Shown: one piece after another, positions 3,452 through 14,491 of the stretch
Numbering within the stretch: the first letter of the stretch is position 1
Layout of the letters: each line of letters begins with the position of its first letter
Assembly (NCBI GenBank): GCA_947625575.1
Contig: CANQOV010000007.1
Span: 1-40,505, forward strand
Direction of reading: 5' to 3'
DNA from: an uncultured Bacilli bacterium
Lineage (GTDB): Bacteria > Bacillota_I > Bacilli_A > RF39 > UBA660
DNA: 40,505 bases
Notes under the pieces: generated by a model
What the model was told of the DNA's origin: nothing
Seen by the model: the letters and a program-made list of their open reading frames with translations, nothing else
Database searches by the model: none
Program-made: the position numbers and the translations under genes

Positions 3452-4317
3452 TGAAAAAGTTACTTTTTTCTAAAACTTTTAAAGATTATGCTATTTATAC
3501 TTTTGCACTTTTTTTATCAAGTTGTTTTTATAATTTGTTTCTTAGAAGTTTAAATATTGTTACTGGTGGAGTAAATGGAATTGCTATTATTTTAGAAAAT
3601 GTTACTAAGGTAGATAATTATGTTTTACAATTTGTTTTAAACTTTTTGTTTTTATTATTAAGTTTTACTTTTATGAAAAAACAGGGAGTTATAGGTGTTT
3701 TATATTTAACGATAGTTTATCCATTGTTTGTTTATCTTACAGGAATACTTACTACAATTTTAGTTATTAGTAAAGAAGAAATGCTCTTATATTCTTTTTT
3801 GGCAGGAATAGGTGTTGGTGTTTCTAATGGACTTATCTATAAATCTGGTTTTACAACTGGAGGAGTTGGGGTGTTAGCTTTTCTTTTGGCTAAAAAGATG
3901 AAAGCAAGTGTCAGTTTGATAAATGCAATTTTAAATGCAGTTATTGTGTTTGCTTCAGTTTTTGTTTTTGGATTTGAAGAGATGTTTTATGCTTTAATAG
4001 TTATTTATGTTAGTAAAGTAGTTAGTGATAAATTATTTTTAGGTATTTCGAATAATAAAGTTTTTTATGTTATGAGTTCTAAGTATGAAGATATATTAAA
4101 TTTATTGTTAGATATTGGTCATGATGCTACTATTTATGATGTTAAAGATAAAAATAAGAAAATTAAATCAAAGATGATTATGTGTGTTGTACCTACTAAA
4201 GAATATTTTGTTGTTAAACAGTTTATAGAAGATATGGATCCTAATGCATTTGTGTTTATTTCTGATAATTATGAAGTTTCGTATCAAGATGTTTCGATAA
4301 ATTTTAATAAAGATTAA
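3451..4317 (+). CDS. YitT family membrane protein (second copy)
   Basis: 288 residues with the same plan as the gene before it: NIVTGGVNGIAIILENV near residue 35, YKSGFTTGGVGVLAFLLA near 130, then the DUF2179-like C-terminal domain with VPTKEYF and EVSYQD. It is last in the prfB-yitT-yitT group; an intrinsic terminator overlaps its stop codon. The two copies may act as partners (a heteromer), but that is inference. Function unknown beyond an integral membrane role. Confidence 0.85.
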   Translation: MKKLLFSKTFKDYAIYTFALFLSSCFYNLFLRSLNIVTGGVNGIAIILENVTKVDNYVLQFVLNFLFLLLSFTFMKKQGVIGVLYLTIVYPLFVYLTGILTTILVISKEEMLLYSFLAGIGVGVSNGLIYKSGFTTGGVGVLAFLLAKKMKASVSLINAILNAVIVFASVFVFGFEEMFYALIVIYVSKVVSDKLFLGISNNKVFYVMSSKYEDILNLLLDIGHDATIYDVKDKNKKIKSKMIMCVVPTKEYFVVKQFIEDMDPNAFVFISDNYEVSYQDVSINFNKD

Positions 4318-4345
4318 ATTTTTGTAGAATTTTAATCTTTTTTTT
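4309..4345 (+). terminator. Intrinsic terminator of the prfB-yitT operon
   Basis: AAAGATTAAA, an AT-rich loop, then TTTAATCTTT followed by a run of T. It includes the yitT stop codon. Confidence 0.8.
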
Positions 4346-4353
4346 GCTATACT
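4345..4353 (+). promoter_or_regulatory. Extended -10 promoter for the TasA-like operon
   Basis: TGcTATACT follows the terminator T-run directly. No good -35 is seen. Predicted start near 4360, at the ribosome site GAAGGA. Confidence 0.5.
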
Positions 4354-4376
4354 CTTAATAGAAGGATATGACGGTT

Positions 4377-5006
4377 ATGAAATTTATTAAAAATAATTAT
4401 TTATTTATTATAATGGCGGTTGTTATTTTTAATGTTATTGCTATTGGTATATCTTTGGCTTATTTTACTAATAGAACAGAAGAAAAGTTAAATGTGTTTA
4501 CTGTTGGTAATGTTAATATTAATGTTAGAGAAGATAATTTTGATAAAGAAAGTGCTAAAACAGTTACTCCTAATGAAGAGATAGATAAAGATCCTTATGT
4601 AGTTAATGTTGGGAGTAATAGTGCTTATGTGTTTATGATGATTGAGGTACCAAGAAAAAATGTTATTATAGTAGATACGGATAATGTTACATTAAAAAAA
4701 CGTAGTTATGTTGATTTGTTTACTTATAATGTTAATTCTTCTTGGCAGTTGATATCTAGTGATGTTAGTGATGAAAGTAGTATATATGTTTATGCTTATA
4801 TGAAAGGTGTTTTACAACCTGATGATAGAACAGATGCTATTTTTGATAAAGTTAAATTTGCTAATGTGTTAGAAGGGGAGATTTCTTCTAATGACAGTTT
4901 TAATGTTGTTGTAAGTGGGTATGCTGTTCAAAGTGATTCTTTGGAAGTTAAAGGAAGCACAGATTTAGAAAAAATGACTTATATATATACTAATTATTTA
5001 AAGTAG
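4377..5006 (+). CDS. TasA/camelysin-like exported protein 1
   Basis: The ORF track starts at ATG 4368, but GAAGGA ends one base before that; ATG 4377 (MKFIKNNYLF, 209 residues) has a workable spacing of ten. One N-terminal hydrophobic segment ends in SLAYFTNRTEEK, the SipW-type signal-peptide and cleavage pattern of TasA/CalY proteins. The body shows FTVGNVNINVREDNF and DPYVVNVGSNSAYVFMMIEV, typical of the TasA beta-sandwich. Family members form surface fibres or biofilm matrix in Bacillus. It is the first of four similar genes in a row. There is no cysteine. The family call is good; fibre formation is inferred. Confidence 0.75.
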   Translation: MKFIKNNYLFIIMAVVIFNVIAIGISLAYFTNRTEEKLNVFTVGNVNINVREDNFDKESAKTVTPNEEIDKDPYVVNVGSNSAYVFMMIEVPRKNVIIVDTDNVTLKKRSYVDLFTYNVNSSWQLISSDVSDESSIYVYAYMKGVLQPDDRTDAIFDKVKFANVLEGEISSNDSFNVVVSGYAVQSDSLEVKGSTDLEKMTYIYTNYLK

Positions 5007-5015
5007 GTGATTTTA

Positions 5016-5537
5016 GTGCGTAAGTTTAAAGTTAATTCTTATTATTTAAAGTTAGTATCTTTTGCTTTAGGGATTGTGGCAGTTGCTATTTTATCTTTTA
5101 GTGCTACATATGCATATTTGACCAGTAAAGATGTAGTTAATAATAACTTTGGGGTTGGAGAAAATACTGTTGAAATTGAAGAAGAGTTTGAGCCTCCTCA
5201 TAAAGTTACTCCGGGTGCTACTATTAAAAAAAGACCAAGTATTAAAAATACTGGTAATGAAGATGTCTATGTTAGAGTGAGAATTCTGTTTTCTGATGAT
5301 AAAGTAAAAGAAATAATTGATGATTTGGAAATTAATTCTAGTTTTGTCTTAAATGACGGTTGGTATTATTATAACAAAGTGTTAAAAACAAATAGTTCTA
5401 CACCTGATATATTTCAAGATATCAAAGTTAAATCTAATATAAGTCAAGAGGCTATATTTGATTTTGACGTTATTATATATGCTGAATCTGTTAATAGCTC
5501 TAAATATAGTAGTTATCAAGATGCATTTGGTTTATAG
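5016..5537 (+). CDS. TasA/camelysin-like exported protein 2
   Basis: The track start (GTG 5007) sits inside the ribosome site AGGTGA; GTG 5016 lies five bases after it and gives MRKFKVNSYYLKL, 173 residues. The signal segment ends SFSATYAYLTSKDVVNN. The TasA-like core has VTPGATIKKRPSIKNTGNE, VYVRVRILFSDD, NDGWYYYNKVL and FDFDVIIYAESV: the order of a proline-glycine turn, an NTG strand and a W-Y-Y-Y strand seen in SipW-dependent proteins. It starts ten bases after protein 1 and ends nine bases before protein 3. Probably exported and assembled with its neighbours. Confidence 0.78.
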   Translation: MRKFKVNSYYLKLVSFALGIVAVAILSFSATYAYLTSKDVVNNNFGVGENTVEIEEEFEPPHKVTPGATIKKRPSIKNTGNEDVYVRVRILFSDDKVKEIIDDLEINSSFVLNDGWYYYNKVLKTNSSTPDIFQDIKVKSNISQEAIFDFDVIIYAESVNSSKYSSYQDAFGL

Positions 5538-5545
5538 GAGGCGTT

Positions 5546-6256
5546 ATGAAGAAGAAAAAGGTTTTGTATGTTGTTTTAGCTTTATTACTTATTGCTTCTA
5601 TATCTATCATGTTTGCAGTCAGTTATGCATTTTTTACTTCTAATGATAGAGTGGATAATACATTTGTTATGGGTGAAGTAAAAATAAGCTTAGATGAGCC
5701 TAGTTGGGATTTGGAAGATAAGGGTAGAGATTTAATCCCTGGTACTTGTTTAAATAAAGACCCTTATATTACTGAATTAGAGGGAGAGTCTTATGCTAGA
5801 ATTATTGTTCAATTTATAGATAGCGATACTAAAGAACTTATTACTGATAAAGAAAGATTAAATGCTATTAGATCTGTTATTTATTATGATAAATCTTATG
5901 ATGTTAATAGAGATTTAGTTACAACTAATTTAATTGAAGGATCATCATATTCTAATAATACTTTAAAAGAAATGGTTAATGATACTTTAATTATTCCATT
6001 TTATAATTATGAAATGTTTATTTTAGATGAAAGTCGTAGTCATGACGGTTATTTTGTTTTTAATTGTCAGGATAAACTTAATAAAGGAGATCGGGCTGTT
6101 TTATTTACAAATATAGTTATTCCTACAGATTATGTTAATAGTGATGTGGATCTTTTAGGAAAATTTGAGATTAAAATCTTTGCAGAAGCTATTCAAACTT
6201 TTGGATTTGTTAATAGAGATGCTGCCTTCCTTGAATTAGATAAGGGGGTTAAGTAA
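5546..6256 (+). CDS. TasA/camelysin-like exported protein 3
   Basis: 236 residues behind a strong AGGAGG. The signal segment ends FAVSYAFFTSNDRVDNTF. The core has WDLEDKGRDLIPGTCLNKDP, YARIIVQFIDSD and LGKFEIKIFAEAIQTFGF, the last being the closing strand shared with the other members (IYAEAIQ-like). Two cysteines (GTCLN, FNCQD) lie in the mature part and could form a disulfide or a pilin-like cross-link. The stop overlaps the start of the large fourth gene (TAATGA). Function inferred from family and operon. Confidence 0.75.
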   Translation: MKKKKVLYVVLALLLIASISIMFAVSYAFFTSNDRVDNTFVMGEVKISLDEPSWDLEDKGRDLIPGTCLNKDPYITELEGESYARIIVQFIDSDTKELITDKERLNAIRSVIYYDKSYDVNRDLVTTNLIEGSSYSNNTLKEMVNDTLIIPFYNYEMFILDESRSHDGYFVFNCQDKLNKGDRAVLFTNIVIPTDYVNSDVDLLGKFEIKIFAEAIQTFGFVNRDAAFLELDKGVK

Positions 6257-8940
6257 TGAAAAAATTAAAATTAAAACAAGGGTTTGTTTGGTTTGGTTTT
6301 GCATTAATTATTTTTGCATTTGTATTTGGAGTTAGTTATGCTCTTATTGAAGTTGCTAATAGTACAATCAGTAATATTAATACTAAAAGTTTAAAAGTTA
6401 GTATTGTTGAAGATTATGAAGAGCCAGAAGAAGTTTTACCTAGTAGTATAATTACTAAAGTAGTTGATGCTAAAAATACTGGAGAAATTGAAGTTTTTGT
6501 TAGAGCTAAAGTTACTAAAGTATGGGGAGATAAAGATGATTCGGGATCTATAGTGGTTGATCCAAGTTTGGAAACTGATAATATCGTTGTTTACTATAAC
6601 AATACTTATTGGGTTGATGGAAAAGATGGTTATTTTTATTACAAAGGTATTTTAAAACCAAATCAAATTACAAAAGAGCCATTACTTACTGATTTTTCTA
6701 TTGCTTCTTCAACTGATAATAGATATCAAGGTAAAGCTGCAGATATAATTGTAGAATTAGAAGCTATTCAAACTACTGGTGGTGCAGTTGGTGATTTATG
6801 GGGAAAGACTTATGAATTTTTAGAAGTAGAAGAGCCTAAAACTAAAGATTATGGTAAGACTGTTGTAACATATTTATCACCTTCTAAACAGTTTGATATT
6901 AGAACTAATCCAATTGATTTATTTGTAAATTTTAAAGATTTAGAGCCCGGTGTTAGTAGAAGTCAAATTGTTACTTTAAAAAATGATTATAAAAGAGCAC
7001 AAGGTTTTGGGTTAAAAGCTGAAGTTACTAAACAAGATGAAAGTTATGATGAAGAACTTATTTATGATTTAATAGATAAATATGTTAATATTGAAATATA
7101 TGATGGAGATAGTCTTTTATATAATGGACCTATTTGGGGTAATTTAGATGATAACTCTAATAATATGAGAGATTATATTGATCTTGGTACTGTTCCTAGT
7201 AATAATTCTAAAGATTTATTGATAAAGTTATCTGTTAGTAAAGATATGGGTAATGAATATCAAAATTTGTTAGCTTATATTAAATGGACATTTAAAACTG
7301 TTTATACTGATCCTACACTTTTGGTACATCATTATTTATATGGTACTAGTTATAGATTAGCAAATGATGAACATCATAATGGAACATATGGTTGGACTTA
7401 TGAAACTACACCAAATGCTAAATTGTTAGAAAAATATGAACTTGTAGGTATGCCAGATAATGCTAGTGGTGTCTATGATGATGAAGAAATAGAAATTACT
7501 TATTATTATAGAATTATTGAGCCAGAATATGAAAAACCTTCAATTGTTAAAGACGGTACAGAATTTATTGCAGTTGATGATAGAAGTGAATTAGTTTATG
7601 TTGAAGGACAAGATGTTTTAGAAAAGTTTGCTATTAGTGAAAAGATTACTTATAGTATTACAATAAATGAATATAGGGGTAATGCAAAAATTACAATTAC
7701 TGATAAATTGCCTCAAAAGATAACTGGACAGTCTATTCTTGATGGTGGTGTTTATGATGAGAAGAGCAACACTATTACTTGGGTTGAAGATGTATTCGTA
7801 GATACTTATGCAAATAATGGTCCAATTACGTTAACTTTTGTTAAAAATGTTAAGTTGTATTATAAAAGATATGTTAGAAATATGACTGATATTGCTACTG
7901 GAGATATAAAATTTGATAATGGAAGCGATGTTCCAGAAGTTAATGATACACATACTACAGTAGTGGATATAGATTCATTGGTATTAGTACATCATTATTT
8001 AGAAAATACTACTACTAGTGTATTTGATGATGAATTGTTAAGAGGAATAGTGGGAGATCCATATGAAACTTTTGCAAAAGAATCTTATAAATATGAAGTT
8101 GTAGGAATACCAGATAATGCTAGTGGAGAATTTTTAGATGATGATATAGTGGTTATATACTATTATAGATTAAGAGAGCCTATAGAAGAAAATGAAGTTA
8201 GTAAAATTGGACTTGATGTGTTAAAACATTTTGATGATACTTTTGAATATACAGTAGCTTATAATTTAAAAATATCTCATTATAAAGGGTTGGTTACTAT
8301 CAAACTTGTTGATTATTTACCATATGCAATAGATTATGAGGCTTCTAATTTAGATGACGGTATTTATGATGATGAGAAAAAAACTATTACTTGGACATAT
8401 GAGATAGATGTTGATTCTCTTGAGGCAGATTATACTCAATATATACAAAAAAATATTATAGTTAAATTTTTAGATATTGATTATACAAAAGATATTGTCA
8501 ATAAAGTAAAAAGTACTTTAAAATATAATGATAAAGAAATAACAGATGATGATGAAGTTGTTACAGATATAGATTTAAATGCTAGAATTATAGTTAATCA
8601 TTATTATAAAGATACAACTAATAAATTAACAGATTCATTGGAATATAGTGTTAAAATTGGTGATAAATATAAAACAAGTTATTCTAAAGAAGTTGAAAAA
8701 AAAGGCTATAGATTAGTTAGTGTTGTAGGAATTGAAAAAGGTATTGCTGATAAAGAAGAAATAGTAGTAAATTACTATTATGAAAAAGTAGAAAATCCTT
8801 ATACGGGTGATCAAATTACTATGTATGTTGTTTCTTTTGTAATAGCGGTAGTTGTACTTATTGCAGTTTGTTTAACATTTACTTATCTTAATAAAGGAAC
8901 TTTATTAAATATTAAAAATAAACATAATAATATTAGATAA
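6256..8940 (+). CDS. Large TasA-like surface protein with MucBP-like repeats and NPYTGD anchor
   Basis: 894 residues. Residues 1-190: a signal segment (VFGVSYALIEVANS) and a TasA-like domain with DAKNTGEIEVFVRAKV, DGYFYYKGILKPNQIT and DIIVELEAIQTTGG. About 355-418, 574-638 and 778-845: three MucBP-like repeats that open with VHHYL or VNHYYKD and close with YYYR/YYYE; the first two contain PDNASG. Two DUF11-like segments lie between them (KITITDKLPQ, VTIKLVDYLP). The C-terminus is NPYTGDQI, a hydrophobic span and a basic tail (NKHNNIR), the layout of a sortase-anchored protein with a non-LPxTG motif. It is the likely wall anchor for the three small TasA-like proteins before it. No sortase or SipW peptidase lies in the window. 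Confidence 0.75.
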   Translation: MKKLKLKQGFVWFGFALIIFAFVFGVSYALIEVANSTISNINTKSLKVSIVEDYEEPEEVLPSSIITKVVDAKNTGEIEVFVRAKVTKVWGDKDDSGSIVVDPSLETDNIVVYYNNTYWVDGKDGYFYYKGILKPNQITKEPLLTDFSIASSTDNRYQGKAADIIVELEAIQTTGGAVGDLWGKTYEFLEVEEPKTKDYGKTVVTYLSPSKQFDIRTNPIDLFVNFKDLEPGVSRSQIVTLKNDYKRAQGFGLKAEVTKQDESYDEELIYDLIDKYVNIEIYDGDSLLYNGPIWGNLDDNSNNMRDYIDLGTVPSNNSKDLLIKLSVSKDMGNEYQNLLAYIKWTFKTVYTDPTLLVHHYLYGTSYRLANDEHHNGTYGWTYETTPNAKLLEKYELVGMPDNASGVYDDEEIEITYYYRIIEPEYEKPSIVKDGTEFIAVDDRSELVYVEGQDVLEKFAISEKITYSITINEYRGNAKITITDKLPQKITGQSILDGGVYDEKSNTITWVEDVFVDTYANNGPITLTFVKNVKLYYKRYVRNMTDIATGDIKFDNGSDVPEVNDTHTTVVDIDSLVLVHHYLENTTTSVFDDELLRGIVGDPYETFAKESYKYEVVGIPDNASGEFLDDDIVVIYYYRLREPIEENEVSKIGLDVLKHFDDTFEYTVAYNLKISHYKGLVTIKLVDYLPYAIDYEASNLDDGIYDDEKKTITWTYEIDVDSLEADYTQYIQKNIIVKFLDIDYTKDIVNKVKSTLKYNDKEITDDDEVVTDIDLNARIIVNHYYKDTTNKLTDSLEYSVKIGDKYKTSYSKEVEKKGYRLVSVVGIEKGIADKEEIVVNYYYEKVENPYTGDQITMYVVSFVIAVVVLIAVCLTFTYLNKGTLLNIKNKHNNIR

Positions 8941-8942
8941 TT

Positions 8943-8970
8943 AGTCAGGAGTTATCTTGACTTTTTATTT
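8943..8970 (+). terminator. Intrinsic terminator of the TasA-like operon
   Basis: AGTCAGGA, loop GTTA, TCTTGACT (one G-T pair), then TTTTATTTT. Confidence 0.75.
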
Positions 8971-11919: not shown

Positions 11920-14491
11920 ATGGAAAATAAAAAAATAGTCTGGGGGGGGGGCAACTAGAAAAAATATAATCCTAATCGGAGGATTAGTATTAACTTTGTT
12001 ATTAGTAGGAACAAGTTATGCTCTTTTTAGAGCAAACTTATTAGGAAGTAAAATTAATAGTGTTGGAACAGAAAGATTTGAATTACACTTTAAAGAAGGT
12101 AATGAACTAAATGTAGTAAATATGTATAAAAGTGATGAAGAAGCAATAAAAGAAGTTCCATACTTTGAATTTACTATTGAAGGCAAATATCAAAAAGGAA
12201 GTAGTTTGGATTATACAATATATTTAGAAGAGATATCAAAAGATAAAGATATAACTTTGGAATCTGTTAAATTAAATTTAAAAAAGATAGTAAATAATAA
12301 AGAACAAGAAGTATTAAAAACAACAAAAATAAGTGAATTAGAAAAATATAAAGAAACAGATAATAAATACTCACTATATAGTGATACTATGACATTTTCC
12401 AAAGTATATTCTAATCCAAAAGACACATATAGATTAAGAAGTTGGATAAATGAACAAAATATAGATTTAGGTAATCTTGGAGAAATAGACGGACCAATAG
12501 TAATCGAACCAAAGAGTTATAAATTTAGAATAAATGTTGAAGCAGGTAATATTGAAGAACAAAATGTCAATGCACCAATATTGTTAGATAATATGATACC
12601 AGTAATCTATGATGAAGAAAAAGAAAGTTGGATTAAAACAACTACAGATAATTGGTACAATTATGATAAGAAACAATGGGCAAATGCCATAACAATAGAT
12701 AACACAAAAGCTTATGATTTATCTAAAAATAAAAACCATGTACCAATAACAGGGCCAACAAAAGTATCAAATGGTTTAAAGTTTGATGGGAAAGATGATT
12801 ATATTGATATTGGCTTTGCAAATAAAGAATTTACAAATGGTTTTACAATGAATACAAAATTTATCTTCACTGAGCAGCCTGTGAATAGTAGCAATTTGTT
12901 TTCTAATATAGAAGCTGGAGGATCATTGATTTATGTTGTAGATAATACAATTAAAGTTGATGTACATGATGGAACAGGTTATATAAATATTGGTGTTACA
13001 GGGCCAATAGAATTAAATAAAGAATATGAAGTAATAGTGACCTTTGATAATACTGATGGAAATTTTTATTTAAATGGAAAATTAATAGGGAGTCATCATT
13101 GGGACACACCAACTAAAATGAAAATTTCTTCTGCACCATTTACAATTGGTGCTGAGCCTGATGCAAAAGGAGGGCATAATTTTTACGCCAATGCTATAAT
13201 CCAAGAAGCAAGGCTATATGAAAGAGCCTTATCACTAGAAGAAGTAACAAAATTATATAATAATGAAGAGGTAAGTGATAAGGGATTACTATCATATTAT
13301 AACTTTGTAGATGAATTTAAACCCGGACAAGAAATAGATATGAAAATGATAAATACTATGTGGGTATGGATACCAAGATATAAATATAGAATATTTAATG
13401 CCAATTTAACTGGTGGAGAAACAGCTAATGAACAAGAAATAGAAATAACTTTTGAAAAAGGGAAAGAAACAACAGGAACAGTGAAATGTGTTGACAGCAT
13501 TAATAAAAATGACGGAACAAGCGAAACTTGTGATGACAAATTTAATAATGGCATTAAAAATGGTGTAAGCACTTATACCCATCCAGCATTTACTTTTGGT
13601 GGAGAAGAGTTAACAGGATTTTGGTATGGTAAATTTGAAGACGGAATAGAATCATCACAATTTGTTATAAAACCTGATGTAGCACCAAATAATACTCAGG
13701 ATATATCTACAAGGTTTCAAAAGATAAGAGAAATGGAATTGCAAAACAATATTTATGGTTTCCTAAGTAATGCAACAGCTTATACTGATACAGGAGACTT
13801 AACTGGGGATAATAATAACTTTGATACTCATTTAACTAAAAATATTGAGTGGGGTGCAGTAGCCTATTTAACACACTCAAAATATGGAAGATGTAATAAT
13901 GGGGCTTGTTCAGAAGTATATGCAAATAACACTAAAGCTTATACAGGAAGAAGTAGTGGCATTGTTAGCTCTGAAACAACTTCTTCATATGGCTCATATT
14001 CCTATGATGATTATATAGTAAATGAAAGTAATGTTAAAACATCAAAAGTTATTGGTAAGGGAACTGGAGCAAGTACCACAGGAAATATCTATGGAATATA
14101 TGATATGTCTGGAGGATTATATGAAAACACAATGGGAATAATGATACCGGCAGATAACAGTTTTGAAACAGTAACGAAATTTAAAAGTAATCTTAATAAA
14201 AAATATTATGATTCCTATAGCTGGGGAACAACAGTTGATGATGTAACATCTTATAAAAGAGGAAAACTTGGAGATGCAACAAAAGAAATAATAAAAAGAC
14301 TTGATAATTCTAATAAAAATGGTTGGTATGGTGGCAAATCAAGTTTTGTAACCACTGCAAGTTGGAATCGTCCATTTTTTATTCGTAGTAAGACTAGTAA
14401 TAGTACTGCTAATGGAGTACTTTCTTTTGCTAGTAATGGAAATAGTGTATGGGAAGAAGGCTCGTTTAGATCTGCTTTAGTAATCTATTAG
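11920..14491 (+). CDS. Phase-variable exported LamG plus lectin/sulfatase-like surface protein (frame broken at G10)
   Basis: The true start is ATG 11920, five bases after GGAGGA. Translation reads MENKKIVWGGG and stops at TAG 11956, because a run of ten G (11942-11951) shifts the frame. With nine or twelve G it continues as ATRKNIILIGGLVLTLLLVG, a proper signal segment ending GTSYALFRAN, and gives about 856 residues. The track shows only the part from TTG 11996. Domains in the ON frame: a SipW-type N-terminus, a LamG/concanavalin-like jelly roll at about 285-445 (KFDGKDDYIDIG, GNFYLNGKLIGS, EARLYERALSLEEV), then a module opening TMWVWIPRYKYRIF with YDMSGGLYENTMG and ending SFRSALVIY, like formylglycine-enzyme/C-type-lectin folds. 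Four cysteines. Base use is richer in A than in neighbours, hinting at transfer. Likely an adhesin; ligand unknown. Confidence 0.75.
11942..11951 (+). repeat. G10 homopolymer, candidate phase-variation switch
   Basis: Ten consecutive G in very AT-rich DNA, codons 8-11 of a surface-protein gene. The present length puts the ATG out of frame. Slipped-strand mispairing by -1 or +2 would restore the frame. An assembly error in the homopolymer is the main alternative. Confidence 0.8.

Follow-up and report, generated by a model that had tools for sequence, protein, structure and literature searches.

Even for Bacillus it is not settled how the cell holds on to its TasA-type fibres, with TapA as the presumed anchor. 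The fibres form by donor-strand exchange, in which the TasA residues F29, I32 and F39 are buried in neighbouring subunits, and TapA donates the first strand of the Bacillus fibre (PMC9674648, PMC10151520). Here, we describe a block of four genes (ORFs 1-4, Table 1) within a window of 40,505 nt, i.e., the entire contig CANQOV010000007.1 (C7 in our numbering) from the genome of an uncultured Bacilli bacterium (1.15 Mb, 75 contigs, 94% complete). The nearest known system is the srtB/sipW-bsaABCRSD cluster of C. perfringens, whose BsaA polymers are mainly extracellular and SrtB-independent (PMC7395162), unlike the anchoring that we propose for the window.

We consider it fairly probable, judging from sequence comparisons, that the four genes encode a SipW-processed, donor-strand-type fibre of the TasA/BsaA family with a sortase-B-anchored base, for which sipW and srtB would act in trans and in which adhesive repeats are built into the anchor. 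This reading rests on the family membership of the subunits, the conserved adjacency of related genes, the collinearity of ORF4 with the anchor proteins of relatives, the fusion of its second domain (D2), the SipW-type peptidase and class B sortase of the genome, the counts of NPxTG[DN] motifs and the donor-strand register.

A search of 386 family genomes (150 genera) with ORF1 yielded at least six full-length homologues in five other genera. The genome studied is the sole member of its genus among those compared, and all genome-wide and relatives' counts are lower bounds, i.e., the best candidates per genome were scored. In the relatives, the homologue belongs to a cassette of an anchor protein (~370-397 aa), the ORF1-like subunit, a SipW-type peptidase and an adhesin-like repeat protein (~590-790 aa; the one that was scanned has Listeria-Bacteroides repeats). 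Anchor and TasA-like subunit are adjacent in 6/6 cassettes, and sipW is present in 5/5 for which the contig is long enough. That is, relatives carry these genes together rather than separately. A sortase gene lies immediately upstream in three of the six cassettes, and all three sortases are class B above cut-off. Given the few sortase genes per genome of about a thousand genes, we estimate that these adjacencies are not due to chance.

The anchors of the relatives consist of a TasA-like domain, D2, an NPxTxD motif and a membrane span. Among 372 genomes, no protein other than ORF4 and the six anchors gave a full-length match to the anchor profile (which includes ORF4 residues 1-363), which makes the distribution of the cassette patchy; just one of the profile's anchors has an NCBIfam match, which is to the BsaA model. 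The alignment of ORF4 with the anchors covers residues 1-350 and resumes at the sorting signal and span, with N-P-x-T-x-D conserved in every sequence. Ahead of this signal, ORF4 has an insertion of ~500 residues made up of MucBP domains and repeats; the inserted repeat region is 35% identical to repeats found in the relatives' ordinary large surface proteins. Since ORF4 is collinear with the anchors and its insert is akin to surface-protein repeats, it reads as a cassette anchor that has gained an adhesin stalk. Compared to the cassette, the window operon is without a separate adhesin gene, sipW and srtB, while it has three diverged copies of the subunit gene. On this comparison, the window operon is a derived version of the cassette, which includes sipW and often srtB in other genomes.

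D2 is also found as a stand-alone protein, encoded by six genes in five other genomes (G248 with two copies, G081, G008, G338 and a Clostridia metagenome-assembled genome, locus L043). These proteins have their own signal and a C-terminal span, two of them with a sorting-type motif (PPQTGD, QPKTGD), and their genes directly adjoin TasA-like genes, usually together with sipW. Because D2 is separate here, while ORF4 and the six anchors have it joined to a TasA-like domain, the domain-fusion argument suggests that fibre subunit and anchor work as one unit. No Pfam family was found for the one stand-alone D2 protein scanned; D2 is an anchor domain without an earlier name, for which other genomes can be screened. 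At loci L118, L120, L154, L144 and L043, D2 has a PG motif near its start and W-x-F near its end. Locus L118 (G248:C5:26000-44000) holds a tandem duplication of the whole adhesin-TasA-sipW-TasA-anchor cassette, in which the ends of sipW and of the flanking TasA-like genes look identical.

Within the window operon, ORF2 matches the NCBIfam BsaA model TIGR04090 with 63.8 bits (cut-off 60) and the Pfam M73 model with 22.0, slightly below the cut-off of 22.5. Taken alone, ORF1 and ORF3 each have a single model match, to the SipW-type signal model TIGR04088, which stays below cut-off. ORF1 is placed in the TasA/BsaA family because its relatives match the family models: among ORF1 and eight relatives, TIGR04088 is matched by 9/9, TIGR04090 by 8/9 and the TasA model NF046066 by 6/9. 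ORF1 is 31-34% identical to six relatives, and the first ~90 residues of ORF3 match the same proteins. Based on these matches, we assign ORFs 1-3 to the SipW-type TasA/BsaA family. Searches of viral contigs with the ORF1 and anchor alignments gave no relatives. A sequence search of the PDB returned nothing for ORF4 or the ORF1 family, and only TasA (5of1) at E=0.28 for a BsaA-like profile.

ORF4 starts with a SipW-type signal, and its N-terminal domain falls into the same superfamily as the ORF1-family profile (98.5%, E=3e-15). That profile excludes ORF4, while the comparison of the anchor profile with the BsaA-like profile is partly circular, as ORF4 is in both. D2 follows as a second β-rich domain. 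Three MucBP stretches (PF06458, 57.7 bits vs. a gathering score of 23, E=2e-15) alternate with two copies of an internal repeat. ORF4 matched none of the TapA models, and its domain make-up differs from that of TapA.

The first-pass annotation of the window had described these genes as translationally linked, encoding three small TasA/camelysin-like proteins and an 894-residue protein with an N-terminal TasA-like domain, MucBP-like and DUF11-like repeats and a terminal NPYTGD plus membrane span. This description holds for the small proteins to the extent given above and for the N-terminal domain, the MucBP repeats and the C-terminus of ORF4. The 'DUF11-like' parts are two real repeats, for which no match to Pfam DUF11 was obtained. 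Linkage was confirmed as well: all four ORFs are real, ORF1 starts at 4368 or, most likely, at the ATG at 4377 (AGAAGG upstream), its stop is 0-9 nt from the start of ORF2, the gap from ORF2 to ORF3 is 8 nt with the ORF3 start behind AGGAGG, and the ATG of ORF4 overlaps the TAA of ORF3.

Next, we consider processing. As the first-pass annotation had noted, no SipW peptidase or sortase gene is found on the window contig, and its suggestion that processing is done from elsewhere is compatible with the remaining genome. A genome search identified one SipW-type peptidase on contig C6 (96.7 bits vs. a cut-off of 51.85), which shares an operon with a further TasA-like protein. It also revealed three sortases, on contigs C6, C35 and C30. 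The C30 sortase is class B (TIGR03064, 173.6 bits vs. a cut-off of 153.75). With one SipW and three sortases elsewhere in the genome, processing in trans is possible.

Class B sortases cut NPxTG(D) motifs. Four sites in the genome match a nucleotide pattern for NPxTG[DN], compared to none in the reversed control and about none expected. Three of the four sites are C-terminal, preceding a span and basic tail, namely in ORF4 and in two secreted proteins on contig C25 (3226, 11774; L131, L132), which end in NPDTGD and NPNTGD plus span. NPxTGD thus seems to be a general sorting signal in this organism. B. anthracis SrtB recognises NPKTG and requires the following Asp for optimal activity (PMC11987632), with which NPYTGD agrees. 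Given this motif, the span, the basic tail and a class B sortase in the genome, the ORF4 C-terminus is predicted to be a class B sortase substrate.

With regard to the donor strand, counting from the Ala of the SipW site, position +2 is F, L or I and position +12 is F or I in ORF2, ORF3 and ORF4, i.e., the spacing of TasA F29/F39. The subunits of the relatives keep an F/F register, while the anchors including ORF4 are aliphatic at +12 where the site can be placed.

From these features we infer the following assembly path. ORFs 1-3 would be exported and cut by the SipW-type peptidase encoded on contig C6, which would free an N-terminal strand that, by analogy with TasA, inserts into the next subunit in donor-strand exchange. 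ORF4 would serve as base, i.e., its TasA-like domain would join or nucleate the fibre as TapA does in Bacillus, while D2 and the MucBP/repeat stalk would hold it off the wall and may bind a mucin-type glycoprotein. The class B sortase of contig C30 would cleave NPYTGD and thereby link ORF4 to peptidoglycan. The earlier proposal of a fibre with its base subunit fixed to the wall is thus supported, with fibre formation and wall attachment being the steps that we infer. Neither of the two outcomes that the first-pass annotation had named as refuting it was obtained.

Table 1. Features of the four-gene block and its borders (window coordinates)
Feature	Position	Strand	Basis
ORF1, TasA-like putative fibre subunit, 209 aa	4377..5006	+	SipW-type signal peptide (A|YFTN...), homologue of subunit beside sipW in relatives
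ORF2, BsaA/TasA-family subunit, 173 aa	5016..5537	+	GTG start at 5016 or 5007; TIGR04090
ORF3, third TasA-like subunit, 236 aa	5546..6256	+	sequence comparison
ORF4, putative anchor/base subunit, 894 aa	6256..8940	+	domains and collinearity with relatives' anchors
ORF4 TasA-like domain, residues 29-190	6340..6825	+	profile comparison; donor-strand register with aliphatic I at +2 and at +12 after A29
ORF4 domain D2, residues 212-350	6889..7305	+	in other genomes, anchored on its own next to TasA-like genes
ORF4 MucBP domain 1, residues ~354-425	7315..7530	+	Pfam and internal repeat analysis
ORF4 interspersed repeat 1, residues ~430-572	7543..7971	+	internal repeat; 'DUF11-like' in the first-pass annotation
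ORF4 MucBP domain 2, residues 578-638	7987..8169	+	best stretch for Pfam PF06458
ORF4 interspersed repeat 2, residues ~655-780	8218..8595	+	internal repeat
ORF4 MucBP domain 3, residues ~783-842	8602..8781	+	Pfam and internal repeat analysis
NPYTGD, predicted class B sortase sorting motif, residues 847-852	8794..8811	+	motif; PMC11987632
ORF4 membrane span (residues ~853-880) and basic tail	8812..8937	+	sequence
A+T-rich hairpin and T-run between yitT2 and ORF1, possible terminator	4309..4346	+	by eye
Terminator-like stem-loop after ORF4, between block and ftsE	8943..8962	+	hairpin search; 2 found in region vs. 1.1 expected by shuffling (weak)

Several observations weigh against the anchored fibre. 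Of the conservation that the first-pass annotation had suggested looking for, the part concerning anchor and TasA-like subunit stands, while the exact four-gene set was not found elsewhere in the 372-386 family genomes. SrtB is present in 323/372 family genomes, hence its mere co-occurrence with an anchor says nothing, and adjacency was used instead. The donor-strand register of ORF1 is one residue longer than that of TasA. Structure predictions were made with shallow alignments: the AlphaFold model of ORF1 is of low confidence (pLDDT 65, mostly beta) and has the TasA fibre 8aur as a weak Foldseek match (rank 16, E=0.014, TM 0.26), and the ORF4 model is unusable (mean pLDDT 48). Finally, polymers and pellicles of C. 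perfringens BsaA are unchanged on deletion of the neighbouring srtB (PMC7395162); polymerisation without SrtB is consistent with a sortase whose role is anchoring and not polymerisation. In a less likely alternative, ORF4 is a sortase-anchored MucBP adhesin with the TasA-like domain as mere head, and ORFs 1-3 are secreted or membrane-tethered proteins that bind ORF4 or each other with no long fibre. Many SipW-type TasA-like proteins are scattered singly over the genome and family, such that the fold alone implies no fibre, and the repeat region of ORF4 is common to ordinary large surface adhesins of the relatives. Arguments against this are that anchor, TasA-like subunit and sipW are conserved as neighbours, that stand-alone D2 anchors lie next to TasA-like genes, that the donor-strand register is retained and that TasA and BsaA are themselves fibre-forming (PMC9674648, PMC7395162). 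It is rather improbable that a fibre exists for which ORF4 is not the base but caps or cross-links it, or acts only as receptor, with fibres being shed into the matrix as happens in Bacillus. This would suit the mainly extracellular BsaA that polymerises without sortase (PMC7395162) and the anchors' aliphatic instead of aromatic donor-strand residues, by which binding may differ; a TasA-like domain fused to an anchor module rather suggests a permanent joint, and TapA provides a precedent for donor-strand initiation near the cell.

The remaining alternatives concern a different function altogether. Given the weak M73 matches, the ORFs might be camelysin-type metalloproteases, which we regard as next to negligible: HExxH is found in none of ORFs 1-4, and the Pfam label 'camelysin metalloprotease' is therefore not to be read as enzymatic. 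M73 is a label that TasA/CalY-type matrix proteins carry as well. Hardly more credible is that the block is functionally part of the cell division genes ftsEX-pcsB, although its position directly upstream and its strand would allow for it. The gene order in the window is prfB, yitT, yitT, ORFs 1-4, ftsE, ftsX, a pcsB-like M23 peptidase, an 831-aa SipW-type protein, nusG, ribosomal proteins, rpoB and rpoC (some neighbour names being assigned directly from sequence). We inspected the surroundings of ftsX in 29 other genomes, of which 27 were evaluable at ftsE. None of ORFs 1-4 is found at this site in 27/27 relatives; ftsE is directly preceded by yitT in 20/27 and by prfB in 2/27. By this synteny, the four-gene block is a lineage-specific insertion into a conserved prfB–yitT–ftsEX locus, and no link to cell division is therefore indicated. 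The terminator-like hairpin behind ORF4 also speaks against such a link. Given the flanking hairpins, the block may, on weak evidence, be its own transcription unit; the hairpin search demands G-C pairs and did not flag the upstream one.

Further observations were made around the locus and in the genome. The 831-aa protein (window 11996-14491) combines a SipW-type N-terminus with a laminin-G-like domain (PF13385, 5.9e-17); a similar protein begins on contig C35 (L035 3-1778), and a homologue is directly upstream of ftsE in G021 (L190). The prfB gene (window ~1540-1840) shows the programmed +1 frameshift site that is usual for it (GGAGG then CTTTGA). Its 249-aa ORF is only the portion after a late TTG, i.e., the gene is ordinary and not truncated. 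On contig C6 (G000:C6:16428-19033, L034 8428-11033), just upstream of the genome's only sipW, a large serine recombinase gene (682 aa) abuts a TasA-like ORF whose signal peptide and 5' end are missing; the absent 5' part was not detected on C6. This resembles the insertion of a mobile element into a gene of SipW type.

Beyond the window, we tentatively propose, with slightly less than even confidence, a class of hybrid fibres that is patchy in the family and extends into Clostridia. Their shafts would be of TasA donor-strand type, with bases covalently attached to peptidoglycan via class B sortase and D2, the latter on its own or joined to a TasA-like domain; in the organism of the window, the adhesive repeats would have moved into the base. 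Within the open-access papers searched, we found no description of an anchored TasA-type fibre. A linked, sortase-anchored base fused to a TasA-like domain is a concrete and testable answer to the question of fibre attachment in a group of uncultured bacteria. It would also bring together donor-strand fibres and sortase-based surface display, which are usually treated apart.

Compared to known systems, the locus shares with sortase-assembled pili a base, here predicted, that is wall-attached by a C-terminal sorting signal, and separate adhesive domains. It differs in its shaft, i.e., no LPxTG-like sorting motif, as demanded of the shaft subunits of sortase-polymerised pili, is found in ORFs 1-3, such that a sortase could only anchor and not polymerise. 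In TasA/CalY/CapP of B. cereus (PMC13082335), several TasA-like subunits form heterofilaments with a chaperone-like helper protein, sortase-independent according to the authors; the window likewise has several TasA-like subunits, and its fourth protein has a sorting signal. The tapA-sipW-tasA operon of B. subtilis (PMC9674648, PMC10151520) is similar in its TasA-like subunits, in the hydrophobic register and, as predicted for the window, in SipW-type processing and an accessory subunit with a donor strand. In contrast to it, the window has no TapA homologue and three subunits instead of one, and its putative base is a far larger, wall-anchored multidomain protein. With respect to the C. perfringens cluster (PMC7395162), the window operon is without sipW, two-component genes and srtB and ends in an 894-aa NPYTGD protein with TasA-like, D2 and MucBP domains. 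Both have BsaA-family subunits with SipW-type signals and several secreted proteins per operon, and the sortase B gene that is located beside sipW in C. perfringens is found beside the anchor gene in three of our relatives.

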